NCBI GenBank assembly: GCA_017520425.1
Contig: JAFXFO010000034.1
Coordinates: forward strand, 1 to 64,000
DNA: 64,000 nt
Reading direction: 5' to 3'
Origin: Lachnospiraceae bacterium
GTDB lineage: Bacteria; Bacillota; Clostridia; Lachnospirales; Lachnospiraceae
Shown: piece by piece, positions 1 to 8,228 of the stretch
Layout of the letters: each line of letters opens with the position of its first letter
How positions within the stretch are numbered: the stretch's first letter is position 1
Translations under genes and position numbers: made by a program
The notes under the pieces: model-generated
What the model saw: only the letters and a program-made list of their open reading frames with translations
What the model was told of the DNA's origin: nothing
Databases searched by the model: none

Positions 1-174
1 AATATACAACACACGATTTCTTACTAATGACTTTGGATGGTTAAGCAGGGACGCAAACGCATCAAAAAATTCATACCATTTATCAGTATCTTGACTTTCG
101 GATATGATTTTATCAGCAATGGCACAAGCATATTTATCATCCTTTGCTGTCAACTTTGCAATTATGTCCTGCAT
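1..174 (-). CDS. HEAT-repeat-like protein, N-terminal fragment (runs off window)
   Basis: An open frame begins at ATG 174 on the minus strand and runs off the left edge, giving the first 58 residues. It is preceded by a strong ribosome binding site, GGAGGTGA at 181-188. The fragment starts MQDIIAKLTAKDDKYA and ends with a segment like a HEAT helix pair (LLNHPKSLVRNRVLYI). I associate this start with a clostridial HEAT-like family often labelled 'SufBD protein', a name that does not describe a proven function. It is the first gene after the DUF6434 gene in the same direction and carries the same 36-nt leader repeat. Identity as a gene is fairly sure; function is not assigned. Confidence 0.72.
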   Translation of the reverse strand, partial: MQDIIAKLTAKDDKYACAIADKIISESQDTDKWYEFFDAFASLLNHPKSLVRNRVLYI

Positions 175-179
175 TAAAA

Positions 180-226
180 CTCACCTCCATATTCAAATTC
201 TTGCATGCTTTTACACTCTCTGCAAG
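180..226 (-). repeat. 36-nt leader repeat, single copy with RBS
   Basis: On the minus strand one 36-nt unit runs from 226 to 191 (begins CTTGCAGAGAG, ends AATTTGAAT) and is followed directly by ATGGAGGTGAG, which supplies the ribosome binding site of the gene starting at 174. The preceding bases TTTCAGT also match the copy at 793-900. The two copies align over about 60 bases at roughly three quarters identity by eye. Confidence 0.75.
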
Positions 227-237
227 ACTGAAATTTG

Positions 238-810
238 TCAGTTTAACGCAGCAAGGTCAGAATTTTCATAACGATTGTGTCCTTGTAAACTCTTTTTATA
301 TTTCCAACAGATAATAGCTTCTTCCAAACCTCTTCCTTGATTATCTTCGAAAAAATCCCGAATGTATGTATTATACTCAAATTGTTTATCAATCGTTGTT
401 TTACCTTTTTTCTTTTCTTCTAAAATCTGATAATATGCATTAATTGCATCACCATAAGTCTTTCCAGCATTACTCTTTAACCACTTCTGGAACAAAACAT
501 TAAAAGAAAAACTTTTACCTATTTTTTCTTTAAAAAAGGCTCTATGCTTTTCGGAACATACTATATTGGATTCAATTAATGTATTTTCTGTAATTAATCC
601 AACAACTATTGTTGCTTTTCTTTTTGCAGAAGTTTCTAATATCTTTCCCGTATCAAGAAAACAGGCAATTCTATCTGTAAGCTCAATCTTTCCACCCGAA
701 ACAGGCAGATTGTTTTCCCTACAAAAATCAACTAATTCTTCCTTCAAATAATAAAAACTTCGAAAAGTTTTTCCATCTAATTCCTTATTCAAATCTGGTC
801 TTTCACTCAT
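238..810 (-). CDS. SAP-like / DUF6434 domain protein
   Basis: 190-residue hydrophilic protein. Residues ~10-55 (KTFRSFYYLKEELVDFCREN through GGKIELTDRIACFLDTGK) look like a SAP-type helix-extension-helix module, a fold that often binds nucleic acid. The C-terminal part, with KSFSFNVLFQKWLKSNAGKT, matches my recollection of DUF6434. Function is unknown. I start at ATG 810 (MSERPDLNKE) because GGAGAG lies about 8 bases upstream. The frame stays open back to a TTG at 915, but that extension is simply translated 36-nt repeats (12-residue periods such as LVERLKATEDLK). It follows the epimerase gene in the same direction. Confidence 0.7.
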   Translation of the reverse strand: MSERPDLNKELDGKTFRSFYYLKEELVDFCRENNLPVSGGKIELTDRIACFLDTGKILETSAKRKATIVVGLITENTLIESNIVCSEKHRAFFKEKIGKSFSFNVLFQKWLKSNAGKTYGDAINAYYQILEEKKKGKTTIDKQFEYNTYIRDFFEDNQGRGLEEAIICWKYKKSLQGHNRYENSDLAALN

Positions 811-900
811 TTTCATTCTCTCCATAAACTTCAAATCTTCTGTTGCTTTCAATCTCTCTACAAGACTGAAAGTTTCTGTTGATTTCATTCTATTTACAAG
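793..900 (-). repeat. Three tandem 36-nt leader repeats
   Basis: Read on the minus strand, units start at 900, 864 and 828 with an exact 36-nt period: CTTGTAAATAGAATGAAATC, CTTGTAGAGAGATTGAAAGC and the degenerate TTTATGGAGAGAATGAAAAT. Units 1 and 2 agree at about 27 of 33 positions. The array spans the gap between the epimerase stop and the DUF6434 start, and its last unit supplies the GGAGAG used as ribosome binding site. Translated it gives 12-residue repeats (LVNRMKSTETFS, LVERLKATEDLK, FMERMKMSERPD). Confidence 0.8.
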
Positions 901-907
901 TTTAATT

Positions 908-1774
908 TTATCCAACCACTTGAATGTAATAATCTATAAGTTCATATATCCAATCGTGAAGTACCGAAAACCTAAATCCCAATGATTGTGCTTTGTCAGT
1001 ATTTATGCTGTATTCTGGTTCTCCGTTATATGGAGCGTTCTCTCCTTCATCACAAAGAATTGCTTTTGAACCAGTTTTTTTCTCAACATAGTCAATTAAT
1101 TCTCTTATAGAAATAGTACCTTCCGAACTTCCGTTAATTGCTCCTCTGACATCTTTATCAACCAAAAAAGCCATAAATCTTCCTGCTTCATCTGAACGTA
1201 TAAAACCCATCTGATAATCCAAATTATCTATATTCATTGGAATAGACTTCATAATATGTTCAACATAAAACAGTAGCCTTTTTGTATAATCATCTTTTCC
1301 TATTGCAAACGGATATCTTACCGCTATCCAGTTTCTATCAGAATACTTTTGCCATAAAGCATACTCTGCCTGCCTCTTTATTTGCTCATATGGGAAGTCC
1401 ATTCTATTGCACCATATAAGTTCTTTTGAAGTTCCGTCAAAATCAGATTCTACAGTATTCATGTGCTTAGGTTCATAAACTGATGTGCTTGACATATGAA
1501 TATATTTATCACAATCAACAACATCCATTACATATCTGATATCATTCGAACAATACGCTATTTTATCAATTACAACATCATAATGTGTACCAATTAAAGC
1601 TTCTTTTACGCTAGTCTCATTTGTTCTCTCAATAATAATTCTTTTTACTTTATCGCCGTATTCATCTGAAGTTTTTCCTCTTGTAGCGATAGTAACATCA
1701 TGACCATTTTCTATAAGTTCATTTACCATGTGTATTCCAAAAAATCTAGTACCACCAATCACCAAAATTTTCAT
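908..1774 (-). CDS. NAD-dependent epimerase/dehydratase (extended SDR)
   Basis: 288-residue extended short-chain dehydrogenase. The N-terminus MKILVIGGTRFFG carries the GxxGxxG dinucleotide-binding motif (residues 7-13); SSTSVY around residue 96 and YEQIK around residue 129 are the catalytic Ser/Tyr/Lys region. Substrate cannot be told; relatives act on nucleotide sugars or related isomerisations. The start is ATG 1774 with GGAGGTG upstream at 1782-1788. The gene is AT-rich compared with the GH36 gene next door and shares direction and leader repeat with the two following unrelated genes. It could be a sugar-nucleotide epimerase or reductase. No partner pathway genes are in view. Confidence 0.85.
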   Translation of the reverse strand: MKILVIGGTRFFGIHMVNELIENGHDVTIATRGKTSDEYGDKVKRIIIERTNETSVKEALIGTHYDVVIDKIAYCSNDIRYVMDVVDCDKYIHMSSTSVYEPKHMNTVESDFDGTSKELIWCNRMDFPYEQIKRQAEYALWQKYSDRNWIAVRYPFAIGKDDYTKRLLFYVEHIMKSIPMNIDNLDYQMGFIRSDEAGRFMAFLVDKDVRGAINGSSEGTISIRELIDYVEKKTGSKAILCDEGENAPYNGEPEYSINTDKAQSLGFRFSVLHDWIYELIDYYIQVVG

Positions 1775-1779
1775 CCCAA

Positions 1780-1810
1780 CACCTCCATGAACTTCAAAGT
1801 TTCCTCTCTA
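1780..1810 (-). repeat. Partial copy of the leader repeat before the epimerase
   Basis: On the minus strand 1810-1780 reads TAGAGAGGAAAC then TTTGAAGTTCATGGAGGTG. The first seven bases and the last 18 match the core of the copy at 793-900 (TAGAGAG ... TTTGAAGTTTATGGAG); about 16 middle bases are missing or changed. It again ends in the ribosome binding site of the gene it precedes. Confidence 0.6.
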
Positions 1811-1824
1811 TTATACTGCCATGC

Positions 1825-1860
1825 CGACAAACTTGCAACGCTTTGCGTTGTTCGTTGTCG
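1825..1860. other. Imperfect hairpin at the edge of the AT-rich block
   Basis: CGACAA(A)C pairs with GTTGTCG on the outside, then a 3x3 internal loop, then CAACGC / GCGTTG with a TTT loop. The outer stem has one extra unpaired A. It sits between the leader of the epimerase gene and the promoter of the plus-strand GH36 gene. It might be a terminator-like or recombination-site-like structure; it lacks a T-run on either strand. Confidence 0.5.
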
Positions 1861-1900
1861 CGTCATGGGGTATTAGCAAATCATAGATGTGCTTTTTCCA

Positions 1901-1929
1901 TTGTAATATGAATATGAAATTGTTAAAAT
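1901..1929 (+). promoter_or_regulatory. Sigma-A type promoter of the GH36 gene
   Basis: TTGTAA at 1901-1906, 17-base spacer, TAAAAT at 1924-1929. Transcription would begin near 1936, leaving too little leader for ATG 1944 and favouring ATG 1965 as the start. Confidence 0.6.
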
Positions 1930-1964
1930 AGAAGTAAGATTTTATGGAAAGGTCGGGTATTGCA

Positions 1965-4196
1965 ATGGGAATTGTTTATTTAGAGAAGGAAAGACTATTT
2001 AAACTGGATACACCGCATACTACATATATCATAGGTATTGTAGGGGAAGAAGGTTTTTTAGGACATGCTTACTATGGAAAGACAATAAAGGATGCGCAGG
2101 GAGCTTCGGCCCTCATGCGTATTTATGAAAATCCTTTTACGCCGGATACCAATGCCAGGGACAGACTGTCCTTTATGGATTGTTTCCCTACTGAGTATTC
2201 GGGCCATGGTGTTGGGGATTATCGGGAAAGCAGTATTCGCGTTACGACAAAAGGAGGATATAATGCCGTATCCTTAGCCTATGTGTCTCATGAGATTTAT
2301 AAGGGAAAGCGGAAGCTGCCGGGATTGCCGGCTACCTTTGGCTCCGAGGAGGAAGTAACAACATTGGCCATTGTCTGTGAGGACAAAGCCATAGGACTTA
2401 CGGCAGTGCTGGAATATAGTGTTTTTGAGACGGTAGATGCCATTGCCAGGAGTGCGAGGATTCTAAACGACAGTAAGGAGGCAGTAGTACTCAATAAGGT
2501 AATGAGTGGTTGTCTGGATATGGATAACAGGGATTTTGAGGTGATTACCTTGCATGGTTCCTGGGCAAGAGAACGGCATATGGAAAGAAAACAATTAGGA
2601 CATGGCAAGTTTCTGGTATCCAGTCTGCGTGGGGAAGGAGGTCACCAGGAGCATCAGTTTATGGCGCTTTTGGACAAGCATGCTACCCAAACGACAGGTG
2701 ATGTGTATGGCTTCCATTTGGTGTATTCCGGTAATTTCCGTATGCTGGCAGAGGTGAATCAGTTTGACAGTGTGAGAGTCATGGGTGGTATCGAACCGGA
2801 GGGATTCCGTTGGCTGTTAAAGCCCGGTGAGAGCTTCCAAAGTCCGGAAATGATTTATGCATATTCATCGCAGGGCTTAGGGGGAATGAGCAGAACCTTC
2901 CATGATTTGTACCGGAATCACTTGATACGCAGTCCCTATAAGGATCAAAAACGCCCCATTTTGATTAATAACTGGGAAGCAACTTATTTTGATTTTGATG
3001 AGCAGAAGCTGTTAGATATCGCCAAAGAAGCTTCCAAACTGGGAATCGAAATGCTGGTCATGGACGACGGATGGTTCGGTAACCGTTTTGATGATAACCG
3101 CGCTTTAGGAGACTGGCAGGTCAATGAAGAAAAGCTTAAGGGAGGACTTAAGAAGCTGGTAGATGGCGTGAATGTACTGGGTATGAAGTTTGGAATCTGG
3201 TTTGAGCCGGAGATGGTTTCCCCGGAGTCAAAGCTTTACCGGGAGCATCCGGACTGGGCCATTGCCATACCGGGCAGAACACCGGGACTGGCCCGAAATC
3301 AGTATGTATTGGATATAAGCCGTAAGGAAGTGCGGGATTACATATTGGAGATGATGTTTAAGGTACTTCATAGTGCCAATATCAGCTATGTGAAGTGGGA
3401 TATGAATCGTCCTTTGAGTGATTTGGGCAGTGCTTGCTTACAGGCGGAAAATCAGGGCGAACTGTACCACAGATATGTGCTGGGTATGTATGAAATGCAG
3501 GAAAGATTGCTGGCAGAATTCCCGGATTTACTGTTGGAGAACTGTTCCGGCGGCGGGGCACGTTTTGATCCGGGCATGCTATATTACAGTCCGCAGATAT
3601 GGTGCTCTGATGATACGGATGCTATCGAACGATTACAGATTCAGGAAGGGACGGCTTTGATATACCCCTTATCCGCTATGGGCGCACATGTCAGTGTTTG
3701 TCCCAACCATACAGTGGGTCGAAATACTCCTTTTGAAACCAGAGGATACGTTGCGCTGGCAGGAACCTTTGGATATGAGTTGGATATTACCAAGCTGACT
3801 GACGAGGATAAGGCAATGGTAAAGTTACAAACTGCCATGTATCATAAGTTTAATGATTTGGTAAGGGAAGGGGATTATTACCGTATTGCTTCTTACAGAG
3901 AGAATCATTTATATGATTGCTTCCAAGTGGTGAGCAAGGACAAAAAGAGAAGTCTGGTATTCTATGTGCAGGTACTGAATGAGGCGAATAAAAAGTCAAG
4001 AATCTTAAAGCTGCAAGGACTGGAGGAAGGACTTACCTATACTGTGAAGGAGCTTGATATGAATGTGGCAGATTCGGAAGATATGGTGAAAGATATGCAG
4101 AAGGCGTTTAGCGGCGAATTGTTGATGAATGCAGGCTTACATTTTGAGAGGATGTGGGGAGATTTCAGAGCTAAGGTAATCGTGTTGGAGGCGTAA
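1965..4196 (+). CDS. GH36 alpha-galactosidase
   Basis: 743-residue family GH36 alpha-galactosidase, full length for the bacterial ~730-residue group. It should release terminal alpha-1,6-galactose from raffinose-type sugars or galactomannan oligomers, in the cytoplasm since there is no signal peptide. The substrate-pocket motif LVMDDGWFGNR is present. Asp479 in KWDMNR is the expected nucleophile and Asp549 in WCSDDTD the expected acid/base; this numbering is close to the pair 478/548 I recall for Geobacillus AgaA. CSGGGARFD is also intact. I start at ATG 1965, after GGAAAGG, because the promoter lies just upstream; ATG 1944 is in frame but nearly at the transcription start. The CE2-type esterase follows 21 bases downstream and is probably cotranscribed. 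Confidence 0.95.
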   Translation: MGIVYLEKERLFKLDTPHTTYIIGIVGEEGFLGHAYYGKTIKDAQGASALMRIYENPFTPDTNARDRLSFMDCFPTEYSGHGVGDYRESSIRVTTKGGYNAVSLAYVSHEIYKGKRKLPGLPATFGSEEEVTTLAIVCEDKAIGLTAVLEYSVFETVDAIARSARILNDSKEAVVLNKVMSGCLDMDNRDFEVITLHGSWARERHMERKQLGHGKFLVSSLRGEGGHQEHQFMALLDKHATQTTGDVYGFHLVYSGNFRMLAEVNQFDSVRVMGGIEPEGFRWLLKPGESFQSPEMIYAYSSQGLGGMSRTFHDLYRNHLIRSPYKDQKRPILINNWEATYFDFDEQKLLDIAKEASKLGIEMLVMDDGWFGNRFDDNRALGDWQVNEEKLKGGLKKLVDGVNVLGMKFGIWFEPEMVSPESKLYREHPDWAIAIPGRTPGLARNQYVLDISRKEVRDYILEMMFKVLHSANISYVKWDMNRPLSDLGSACLQAENQGELYHRYVLGMYEMQERLLAEFPDLLLENCSGGGARFDPGMLYYSPQIWCSDDTDAIERLQIQEGTALIYPLSAMGAHVSVCPNHTVGRNTPFETRGYVALAGTFGYELDITKLTDEDKAMVKLQTAMYHKFNDLVREGDYYRIASYRENHLYDCFQVVSKDKKRSLVFYVQVLNEANKKSRILKLQGLEEGLTYTVKELDMNVADSEDMVKDMQKAFSGELLMNAGLHFERMWGDFRAKVIVLEA

Positions 4197-5463: not shown

Positions 5464-6840
5464 ATGTTTCAGGAAAATTTCGTATGGGGCGTGGCAGACA
5501 GCGCTTTTCAGGTAGAAGGTAAGGATGTGACAGACGGCAGTGGTATGACTGTGTGGGATACCTATTGTGCCGAAGGTCACATATTTGACGGACAGGATGC
5601 CAAGGTGGCCTGTGACAGATTACATAAGTATCCGGAGGACTTTGCACTGATGAAGGAACTGGGCGTGAAGAATTACCGCTTTTCCGTGAATTGGGCAAGG
5701 ATTCTGCCGGAAGGAACCGGTAAGGTAAATGAGCAGGGTATTGCTTTCTACAAGGATATGTTGAAGGAAATGAAGAAGAATGGTATTACTCCTTATTTAA
5801 CCATGTTTCATTGGGAGTATCCCCAGGTCTTGCAGGATAAGGGTGGTTGGTTGAATCCGGACAGTGTGGAATGGTTCGGCGAGTATGCGAAAGTCATTGC
5901 AGAGAACTTTTCTGAGGATTGTGAGTACTTCTTTACCTTTAATGAGCCTCAGTGTTTCGTGGGACTTGGATATCTGCGTGGTGCGCAGGCACCGGGAATG
6001 ATGCTTCCTCAGAAGGACGTGTTCCAGATTACTCACAATGTATTGAAGGCACATGGTACAGCGGTTATCAATTTAAGAAAATATGCAAAGAGACCTATTA
6101 AGATTGGCTATGCGCCTACTTGTGGCGTGGCATTGCCTGCATCTGACAGGCCGGAGGATATAGAAGCGGCGCGAGAGACCTATCTTGGCTTGAATATCCC
6201 CATGGATAACTGGACTTGGAATGTAGTATGGTTCAGTGACCCGGTATTCCTGGGCAAATATCCGGAGGCGGGTTTGAAGAAGTTTGCAGAGTATCTGCCG
6301 GAGATTACCGAGGAGGATATGAAGCTGATTCATCAGCCCTTGGATTTCATGGGGCAGAATATTTATAATGGTTACTACGTGCGCAGAGGTGAAGACGGTA
6401 GTATAGAGGATGTGAAGCGTCCTGTGGGTTATGCTAAGACGGCTGTGAACTGGCCCGTGACACCGGAGTGCTTGTACTGGGGCTGCAAGTTCCTTTATGA
6501 GCGTTATCAGATGCCTATTTATATTACGGAAAATGGTATGTCCTGCCATGATGTAGTGTCTTTGGATGGTAAGGTACATGATCCCAATCGTATTGATTTC
6601 CTGGAGCGATATCTGGCAGCCATACAGAAAGCTATCGAGGAAGGTGTTGATATTAAGGGCTATTTCGAATGGACCTTTCTGGATAATTTTGAATGGACCC
6701 ATGGCTATAATGAACGTTTCGGTCTGGTATATGTGGACTTTGCCACACAGAAGAGAATCCCTAAGGATTCCGCTTACTGGTATAAGGAAGTCATGGAAAG
6801 CAATGGTGCCAGTCTGTTTGTAAATTGGGAGGGCAAGTGA
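5464..6840 (+). CDS. GH1 beta-glucosidase
   Basis: 458-residue family GH1 enzyme of normal length. The acid/base is Glu161 in FTFNEPQ and the nucleophile is Glu356 in YITENGMS; the N-terminal FVWGVADSAFQVEG and C-terminal NFEWTHGYNERFGLVYVDF signatures are intact. It should hydrolyse cellobiose or other beta-glucosides. The active-site loop has no evident phospho-sugar signature, though 6-phospho-beta-glucosidase activity cannot be excluded. There is no signal peptide. The 157-base gap before it contains TATAAA at 5412 and an AGGAAAGG ribosome binding site, so it probably has its own promoter. The DUF4250 gene overlaps its stop codon. Confidence 0.95.
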   Translation: MFQENFVWGVADSAFQVEGKDVTDGSGMTVWDTYCAEGHIFDGQDAKVACDRLHKYPEDFALMKELGVKNYRFSVNWARILPEGTGKVNEQGIAFYKDMLKEMKKNGITPYLTMFHWEYPQVLQDKGGWLNPDSVEWFGEYAKVIAENFSEDCEYFFTFNEPQCFVGLGYLRGAQAPGMMLPQKDVFQITHNVLKAHGTAVINLRKYAKRPIKIGYAPTCGVALPASDRPEDIEAARETYLGLNIPMDNWTWNVVWFSDPVFLGKYPEAGLKKFAEYLPEITEEDMKLIHQPLDFMGQNIYNGYYVRRGEDGSIEDVKRPVGYAKTAVNWPVTPECLYWGCKFLYERYQMPIYITENGMSCHDVVSLDGKVHDPNRIDFLERYLAAIQKAIEEGVDIKGYFEWTFLDNFEWTHGYNERFGLVYVDFATQKRIPKDSAYWYKEVMESNGASLFVNWEGK

Positions 6841-7013
6841 TGATACCTAACGACCCGGTAATGTTACTAAGCTTTGTGAACTTAAAGCTGAGAGATTTTT
6901 ATTCCAATTTGGATGCCATGTGTGAAGATTTGGATATTAGTAAAGAGGAACTGGTACAGAAGCTGGAAGGTATTGACTACCATTACAATGCGGAGAGAAA
7001 TCAGTTTGTGTAA
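6840..7013 (+). CDS. DUF4250 small protein
   Basis: 57-residue protein beginning MIPNDPVMLLSFVNLKLRDF, with LDAMCEDLDISKEELVQKLE and a C-terminal YNAERNQFV. I recognise this pattern as DUF4250, a small conserved protein of Firmicutes with no known function; the middle part resembles a small helix-turn-helix. ATG 6840 overlaps the TGA of the GH1 gene by one base and GGAGGG lies 7 bases upstream, so translation is probably coupled. A longer in-frame start upstream would sit inside the GH1 gene without a ribosome binding site. Confidence 0.8.
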   Translation: MIPNDPVMLLSFVNLKLRDFYSNLDAMCEDLDISKEELVQKLEGIDYHYNAERNQFV

Positions 7014-7037
7014 GGGAAGTCCTTGGAGGGATGTCCG

Positions 7038-8228
7038 ATGGAAGCTAAGAGGAAATGTGCGGTTTGTATAGGTTGTGGTCGATGCGGAGAGTATCGGAAA
7101 GACCTACAGGTGATTACAGATAGTTTTTTAAAATCAGAACTTTTGTCTGCAGATACTGCGGACAAAGGTTCTTTTGTGATTGTTGATATCGGAACCACCA
7201 CCATAGCCATGGAGGCTTATGATGCGTATGGTGCAAAGCAGGCACAGTACGTGCAACATAATCCCCAGAGAATTTTCGGCAGGGATGTGATTTCCCGGAT
7301 TCAGGCAGCAGAAAATCCTATCCCGGCGAAGCAAATGCAGGGATTGGTAAAGCAGATGTTACTACAGGGGCTGGAGGAGTTGCAAAAAAAAGTTCCGGAT
7401 ATTCGGAAGGTTTATGTGGCAGGCAATACCACCATGCTGTATTTGTTGTTGGGATATGATACCAATGAATTGGGTTATGCACCTTTTAGGGCCAGCCGAT
7501 TGGAGCGGGCTGAGACCTCCCTGGGAGAGTGGAATGCTGTTTGTTTGCCCGGATTTTCCGCTTTTGTAGGAGCAGATATAGCGGCCGGTGTGTTGGCTAC
7601 GGGTATGGCAGAAAAAGAAAGCGTCAGCCTGTTGATAGATTTGGGTACCAACGGAGAAATGGTGCTGGGCAATAATGAGAAGCTACTTGCCTGTGCTACG
7701 GCAGCAGGTCCCGCCTTTGAAGGAATGCTGGAGGATGGAAGACAGGCCCTGTGGGGGGCTGATCTGGTAAAGGCCGTAGCAGAACTTTTGGACAAGGGGA
7801 TCCTGGATGAGACAGGGCTTTTGGCAGAACCCTATTTTAAAGAAGGTGTGACCGTTGCCGGTGTGCAAATTACGCAGGAGCATGTAAGGAATCTGCAGAC
7901 TGCCAAGGCTGCCCTTAAGGCAGGGATTGAAATATTGGCGGAGGCATATGGGATCGCCGTAGAGGATATTGAACAGGTTTATCTGGCGGGAGGCTTCGGG
8001 TATTTTCTGGAGGAAGAGTCGGCTATACGAATCGGATTGTTACCGAAGGCGTTGAAAGGAAAGGTGCAGGCGGTTGGAAATAGTGCGTTGGCAGGTTGTT
8101 ATGCATATCATTTTGCCGGGGATGCAGAAGAAAAACTCGCGCGGATAAAAGAGCTTACGAAAGTGATTAATTTGGCTGAATGGGAAGGGTTTAGTCAGAG
8201 ATTTGTGGAGAATATGTATTTGAGATAG
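7038..8228 (+). CDS. Orphan RACo-like ASKHA protein (DUF4445 type)
   Basis: 396-residue protein of the family that includes the reductive activators of corrinoid proteins (RACo). The ASKHA ATPase core is clear: VIVDIGTTTIAMEAYD, LLIDLGTNGEMVLG, YLAGGFGYFLE. Typical RACo proteins are about 600 residues with an N-terminal [2Fe-2S] ferredoxin domain; here that is replaced by a short Cys cluster (CAVCIGCGRCGEYR). No corrinoid protein or methyltransferase gene is nearby, so the client is unknown. I start at ATG 7038, with GGAGGG 7 bases upstream, rather than TTG 7023. Electron transfer through the short Cys cluster is inference. Confidence 0.8.
   Translation: MEAKRKCAVCIGCGRCGEYRKDLQVITDSFLKSELLSADTADKGSFVIVDIGTTTIAMEAYDAYGAKQAQYVQHNPQRIFGRDVISRIQAAENPIPAKQMQGLVKQMLLQGLEELQKKVPDIRKVYVAGNTTMLYLLLGYDTNELGYAPFRASRLERAETSLGEWNAVCLPGFSAFVGADIAAGVLATGMAEKESVSLLIDLGTNGEMVLGNNEKLLACATAAGPAFEGMLEDGRQALWGADLVKAVAELLDKGILDETGLLAEPYFKEGVTVAGVQITQEHVRNLQTAKAALKAGIEILAEAYGIAVEDIEQVYLAGGFGYFLEEESAIRIGLLPKALKGKVQAVGNSALAGCYAYHFAGDAEEKLARIKELTKVINLAEWEGFSQRFVENMYLR

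Follow-up and report, generated by a model that had tools for sequence, protein, structure and literature searches.

Which process sets unrelated genes one behind another on the same strand, with copies of one short repeat between them? This question is raised by the first 1.8 kb of the window, the 64,000-nt stretch of Lachnospiraceae DNA analysed here. An initial annotation had noticed a 36-nt repeat before three unrelated minus-strand genes and had read the arrangement as foreign genes in a cassette-like array that recalls an integron but is not tied to a known integrase. That reading came through most of the tests proposed for it, and we consider it likely that the region is one end of a mobile gene-cassette array. 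Base 1 of the window is base 1 of contig C31 in its assembly, and any leftward continuation of the array would lie beyond the contig end. The features are collected in Table 1; on the minus strand, the order inward is promoter-like sequence, half-site, epimerase gene, site B, SAP/DUF6434 gene, site A and third gene.

Table 1. Features of the array end, in window coordinates.
Feature	Position	Strand	Basis
Third cassette's gene, start	1..174	-	ORF list; 58 codons, gene cut by the contig edge
49-nt cassette site A	189..237	-	nhmmer 33 bits; 3 mismatches to the pattern; includes unit 191-226
SAP/DUF6434 gene, cassette 2	238..816	-	Pfam SAP_new25 5.7e-23, DUF6434 1.3e-20
49-nt cassette site B	827..875	-	nhmmer 54 bits; includes unit 829-864
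Second 36-nt unit, decayed, adjoining site B on its upstream side	865..900	-	27/36 identities to 829-864
NAD-dependent epimerase/dehydratase gene, first cassette	908..1774	-	Pfam Epimerase 4.9e-10
Right half-site AAACTTTGAAGTT at the array start, without left half	1790..1802	-	sequence reading
Promoter-like TTGCAA-17-TATAAT, directed into the array	1810..1838	-	10/12 positions matched

The repeat units are genuine, although two of the copies originally described are not well supported as such. Unit 829-864 agrees with 191-226 at 25 of 36 bases and with 865-900 at 27 of 36, and among the 127,928 36-mers on both strands of the window, exactly these three units, the query counted, reach at least 25 identities to 829-864. 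The supposed third tandem unit (793-828) has 19/36 identities, a level that 107 of the 127,928 36-mers reach, and it partly coincides with the start of the DUF6434 gene; the shortened unit at 1780-1810 comprises the right half-site ACTTTGAAGTT only. We infer that the DUF6434 gene starts at the ATG at 810 or 816, rather than at the upstream TTG at 915. The label 'HEAT-like' for the third gene was not supported, as only 58 codons are present and their best Pfam and NCBIfam matches have E values of 0.08-0.1, none of them to HEAT. The AT-rich composition that had been noted was confirmed, with a GC content of 0.322 in positions 1-1800, below every other 1.8-kb block (0.385-0.481).

The promoter-like sequence is the top one of 13 matches in window positions 1-2000, a total that is itself unremarkable against shuffled sequences (mean 9.1, sd 2.7). 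The neighbour of the array start is a plus-strand ORF (1944-4196) and no integrase; the array starts of other loci were seen in part. A recombinase, which the initial annotation had proposed to seek at the array end, was not found among the matches listed. Window positions 1-1860 had no match in the plasmid collection, and a generic dyad pattern had 0 matches in the window against 1.85 expected. A long imperfect hairpin (1817-1866; CATGCCGACA...TGTCGCG) adjoins the array start; together with similar sequences in loci L040, L049, L064 and L161, it may represent a dispersed palindromic repeat.

Comparison across loci showed a 49-nt site between same-strand genes, with the consensus AAmTTTCAGTCTT-n5-GAGAyTGAAAGC-n8-ATTTGAAkTT. 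Conservation spans positions 2-49 and hardly extends further, among flanks of which 116 on the left and 119 on the right are distinct. The last block, ATTTGAAkTT (positions 40-49), is conserved although it lay outside the search pattern. Positions 5-14 form a stem with positions 20-29, in which 1453 of 1500 cells are paired and all ten pairs are present in 117 of 150 sites, with a few changes from T-A to G-T or G-C at pair 11:23. The folding energy is only modestly better than that of shuffled sequences (z of -1.67 and -0.30 for two copies). The site contains an arm-spacer-arm core, TTTCAGTCTT-n5-GAGATTGAAA, and its ends, AAm...kTT, are inverted repeats. The ribosome-binding sites that the repeat was thought to supply fall just 3' of it, outside the conserved part, and a Shine-Dalgarno sequence plus start codon follows within 60 nt of 89 of 146 sites (425 of 2920 in the control). 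The repeat makes more sense as a site at which cassettes join than as a leader that provides ribosome-binding sites.

The exact core TTTCAGTCTT-n5-GAGAnTGAAA was found in 103 stretches of the species-genome collection and had no match in the viral collection; eight contigs from an earlier viral scan were dropped because the rest of the site is absent from them. Titles of 77 of the 103 stretches name Lachnospiraceae or its genera (genus membership by recall) and four name Eubacterium sp. The 22 others name Oscillospiraceae, Ruminococcus, Treponema, Spirochaetia, Bacteroidales, Mollicutes, Flavobacterium or broad ranks such as Clostridia, some of which are ranks that include Lachnospiraceae and some of which are not (Treponema, Bacteroidales, Flavobacterium). 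Off-family titles may come from transfer, from errors in binning or, in the case of Flavobacterium, from chance. Transfer or binning error may likewise account for the sites at L032, L054, L056, L065, L071, L084, L112 and L114, which lie in bins titled Oscillospiraceae, Treponema, Spirochaetales, Spirochaetia or Mollicutes. Named records other than metagenome-assembled genomes (MAGs) also contain the site: Roseburia inulinivorans (L116), R. porci (L037), Blautia caecimuris (L108) and Lachnospiraceae A2. Over 397 genomes of the family, a strict site pattern matched eight, of which five were real, namely the window's own genome and four of other genera; G401, G342 and G330 were rejected because the site matched in part only. 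The site pattern matched 52 of 53 genomes, which had been picked because earlier searches had found the site there. The window's genome has two site matches at up to three mismatches, both on C31, and sites occur on several contigs of one genome in, for example, G457 and G492. Most loci are MAG contigs, with many sites near contig ends when overlapping loci are counted too, and the site counts exclude L001-L017, L020, L021, L025, L026 and L038 (Flavobacterium, core only). Among the titles and abstracts listed, from a collection without preprints and with few subscription papers, none describes these arrays.

As the initial annotation had proposed to check, the repeat precedes many unrelated genes in other Lachnospiraceae, and the order of these arrays is strict. 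Of 50 loci with at least two sites, 49 have all of them on the same strand (30 of 31 once overlapping refetched loci are removed). In counts that take in overlapping loci, the nearest ORF is on the strand of the site in 183 of 191 cases upstream, with a median of 17 nt from stop codon to site, and in 171 of 187 cases downstream. The short stop-to-site gaps suggest that the cassettes may lack promoters of their own. Among 41 distinct cassettes with a site at both bounds, ORFs of at least 60 aa on the site's strand number one in 17, two to four in 18 and zero in six; the longest ORF lies on that strand in 35 of 39. Sixty cassette ORFs matched 74 Pfam families. GNAT acetyltransferases (7) were the most frequent, ahead of HTH proteins (4) and alpha/beta hydrolases (3); glyoxalase-like proteins were also present, and the 25 families shown include no transposase. 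In a set of loci that partly overlap, the 45 largest gene clusters near sites are either entirely on the sites' strand (39) or entirely opposite (6); the latter include IS91-like genes and a transposase that we take to be IS110-like. In L027, L044/L200, L155 and L168, a shared stretch and a promoter-like GTGG-TACAAT end in ATTTGAAkTT, after which the cassettes differ; this stretch, which has a DUF6061 gene in L044 and L155, resembles a common array start. The part behind DUF6061 was rejected as an integrase-bearing platform, as no recombinase is found among the ORFs of L155 4300-5187 and L044 6400-8000.

Endpoints of homology between loci were taken from alignments of 80-99% identity. Inside the site window lie 128 of 339 internal endpoints, against a random mean of 11.4 and maximum of 26 in 200 draws. 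Of 171 endpoint positions, 58 fall at 0-11 and 75 at 36-55. A dyad-like sequence lies no more than 20 nt away from 39 of the remaining 211 endpoints (mean 4.7 and maximum 12 in the control). DNA homology stops at the site far above chance, and the stops cluster at its left and right parts. Of 454 alignments, redundant pairs counted, 29 begin and end at a site in at least one of the two loci. The DUF6434 cassette (window 177-875) matches L120/L131 1211-1909 at 91% over 700 nt with both ends at sites, and stands there between other genes than in the window; the three genes are not kept together, and a given cassette can have other neighbours in another genome. DUF6434 is present in the window's genome and in 0 of 60 relatives. 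Window positions 1-182 match L084 1652-1833 at 97%, and this match ends 7 nt short of site A. The proposed comparison of loci for gain or loss of single units gave no case, with 0 whole-cassette events among the ten indels found between loci. As the same cassette is found with new neighbours and homology breaks at the site, the cassette idea holds.

In 19 pairs of sites that share the left gene but not the right, sequence agreement reaches position 14; where the right gene is shared (33 pairs), it begins at position 41. Identity of the loop (15-19) and spacer (32-39) is 0.60 for same-left, 0.56 for same-right and 0.52 for unrelated pairs, and the middle matches exactly in 0.105 of the 19 same-left pairs, compared with 0.024 of unrelated pairs. 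The variable middle tracks neither neighbouring gene clearly. Linkage between loop and spacer is partial (MI 2.16; mean 1.65 and maximum 1.90 in 1000 shuffles). Loop/spacer identity is 0.605/0.434 within genomes (154 pairs) and 0.581/0.486 between them (6516 pairs); CRISPR-type repeat duplication was rejected, as it needs near-identical repeats in each array. At other loci, TAAGCCGGTGTGTTTAACTGAGAGACGA stands as the middle between the same cassette ends, or there is no middle at all and kTT comes straight after AAmTTTCAG. A cassette that precedes the standard middle in L128 has a different one behind it in the one-contig genome G292.

The simplest reading of these breakpoints, we infer, is that the site consists of two short dyads, AAmTTTCAGTCTT and ATTTGAAkTTTG, 36 bp apart, and that a site-specific recombinase, acting in trans or lost from the window's genome, would swap cassettes at either of them. 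If either dyad can recombine, the 36-nt middle would behave as a small cassette without a gene, and the decayed copy at 865-900 agrees with this. The promoter-like sequence at 1810-1838 would drive the first cassettes. Further middles were observed: the second piece TAAGCCGGTGTGTTTAACTGAGAGACGA or a near variant is found in L036, L068, L074, L075, L109 and L159, and a third, with the hairpin GTTCAATC...GATTGAAC or similar, in L159 and L022. At L140 9536-9600, from a one-contig genome, the cassette shared with L128 is followed by another middle, with a TTCCC...GGGAA hairpin, suggesting that other site families may exist.

Among the closest known arrangements is the integron. Here, as in integrons, same-strand cassettes of mostly one to three genes, carrying GNAT, hydrolase, HTH and glyoxalase-like genes, follow a promoter-like sequence at one end, and the site can form a hairpin and has AAm...kTT ends that are inverted repeats. 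A standard integron remnant (CALIN), with attC sites moved by the IntI integrase, is nevertheless disfavoured and in our estimate highly improbable. The integron integrase model TIGR02249 was above its cut-off of 265 bits in 0 of 30 array genomes. The boxes of attC follow the motifs RYYYAAC (R'') and GTTRRRY (R'), and of 150 distinct site contexts, none has both, while each is present alone in one. The middle of the site, unlike that of integrons, does not clearly accompany the upstream gene, the site is 49 nt long, and small clusters can lie on several contigs of one genome. The array works like an integron array but lacks three of the integron features tested. Treponema chromosomal integrons also form cassette arrays, and a few of our sites come from Treponema-titled bins; their attC sites, however, measure 63-132 bp, with AAC/GTT triplets, and are accompanied by intI (PMC3607928), unlike the 49-nt sites here, which lack an IntI above cut-off. 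In Firmicutes, integrons are extremely rare according to the IntegronFinder 2.0 report (PMC9024848). A conserved leader RNA or other regulatory element would fit a site that lies 5' of genes and has so well paired a stem (1453/1500 cells), but no Rfam match up to E 1 was found in window positions 1-2500, the left part of the site accompanies the upstream gene and the downstream genes are unrelated; it is disfavoured by the breakpoint data and seems to us hardly credible.

The remaining alternatives concern what moves the cassettes. Host Xer recombinases, acting as on the dif modules of Acinetobacter plasmids, would account for the missing dedicated integrase: tyrosine recombinases of 298-314 aa, which we take to be Xer-sized, are encoded in at least nine of 17 genomes, and the site contains an arm-spacer-arm core. 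XerCD dif modules reportedly likewise place genes between short recombination sites with no integrase of their own, but the sites here differ from theirs in sharing one orientation. The real strict-pattern matches in only 5 of 397 family genomes argue against host Xer enzymes, an explanation that we regard as unlikely. A dif pattern was not discriminating (three matches in two of seven genomes; reversed control, six in three). No tyrosine recombinase consistently adjoins sites in 17 genomes, among the matches listed, and a phage-integrase gene at L130 was set aside, being present at one fetched locus only. The XerA/XerD-like P0001 was rejected as the integrase, as its homologs of about 60% are located elsewhere, next to what are presumably hsdS (type I restriction specificity) genes, and G000, G292, G357 and G432 are outside the 53 genomes that match it (E<=1e-60); we keep it as a captured passenger gene. 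It directly follows AACTTTCAG-TAAT in L037, L078, L170, L171 and L178, with the L037 copy (6516-7484) behind an inserted IS91-like element; the junction is altered in L046 and L106, and the form AAmTTTCAG-TAAT, or an altered version, directly precedes the gene in different arrays. A deleted remnant of P0001 lies at L033 3146 and a fragment in L106. Mobilisation by IS91-like rolling-circle elements, which pair a Y2 transposase with a tyrosine recombinase, would be in keeping with the orientation of both genes, always opposite to the sites in arrays (0 of 9 and 0 of 6 ORFs on the same strand, overlapping loci included), and with [AC]YYnnRRTTT following 17 of 27 distinct element ends, against 44 of 54,000 positions by chance. 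The full motif is at 13 of 16 ends from the family search; in array loci it is at 4 of 11, and the remaining seven begin [AC]TTT. Since the full motif stands at most IS91-like ends, a related dyad is their recognised target, the same kind as in the site. Such insertions at a short dyad motif are seen across Lachnospiraceae, within arrays and outside (L037 3907-6458, L124, L066, L034, L094, L108, L109, L201-L213, L216, L224 and L227-L230). P0002, the array-located tyrosine recombinase of such an element, scores 153.7 bits to TIGR02249 (cut-off 265). Homologs of P0002 (E<=1e-50), however, occur in only 23 of 397 family genomes, and the site-bearing G000 (the window's genome), G292, G146, G357 and G432 are not among them; in L238 and L240 the recombinase lies amid mixed-strand genes, like an ordinary IS, and, unlike in IS91/ISCR, the 25 Pfam families shown for cassette ORFs include no transposase. 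We rate this mobilisation as quite improbable. Finally, there may be no dedicated system: the site would be a short dispersed repeat, and recombination between its copies, by RecA or through short homology, would shuffle the cassettes. The breakpoints within the repeat, the reassorting middle and its partial loop-spacer linkage (MI 2.16) speak for this, whereas conserved blocks of only 7-12 bp, the strict one-strand order, the close fit to stop codons and the transplantation of single cassettes between genomes speak against it, and we find it improbable.

The arrays would belong to a known kind, that of mobile gene-cassette arrays. We give roughly even odds to the fuller proposal that Lachnospiraceae have a gene-capture system parallel to integrons, in which a dedicated putative recombinase would act on the double-dyad site, cross at either dyad, shuffle genes and 36-nt middles and so spread accessory genes among gut Clostridia. 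This raises the question of which enzyme reads the site, to which the dyad common to the site and IS91-like insertions is a direct lead. A dedicated recombinase, if found, would make the arrays a separate system. If the proposal is true, genes would be exchanged in Lachnospiraceae, one of the main families of the gut, by a route so far unrecognised, within a phylum in which integrons are described as extremely rare (PMC9024848), and the site would offer a means to search for many small accessory genes.
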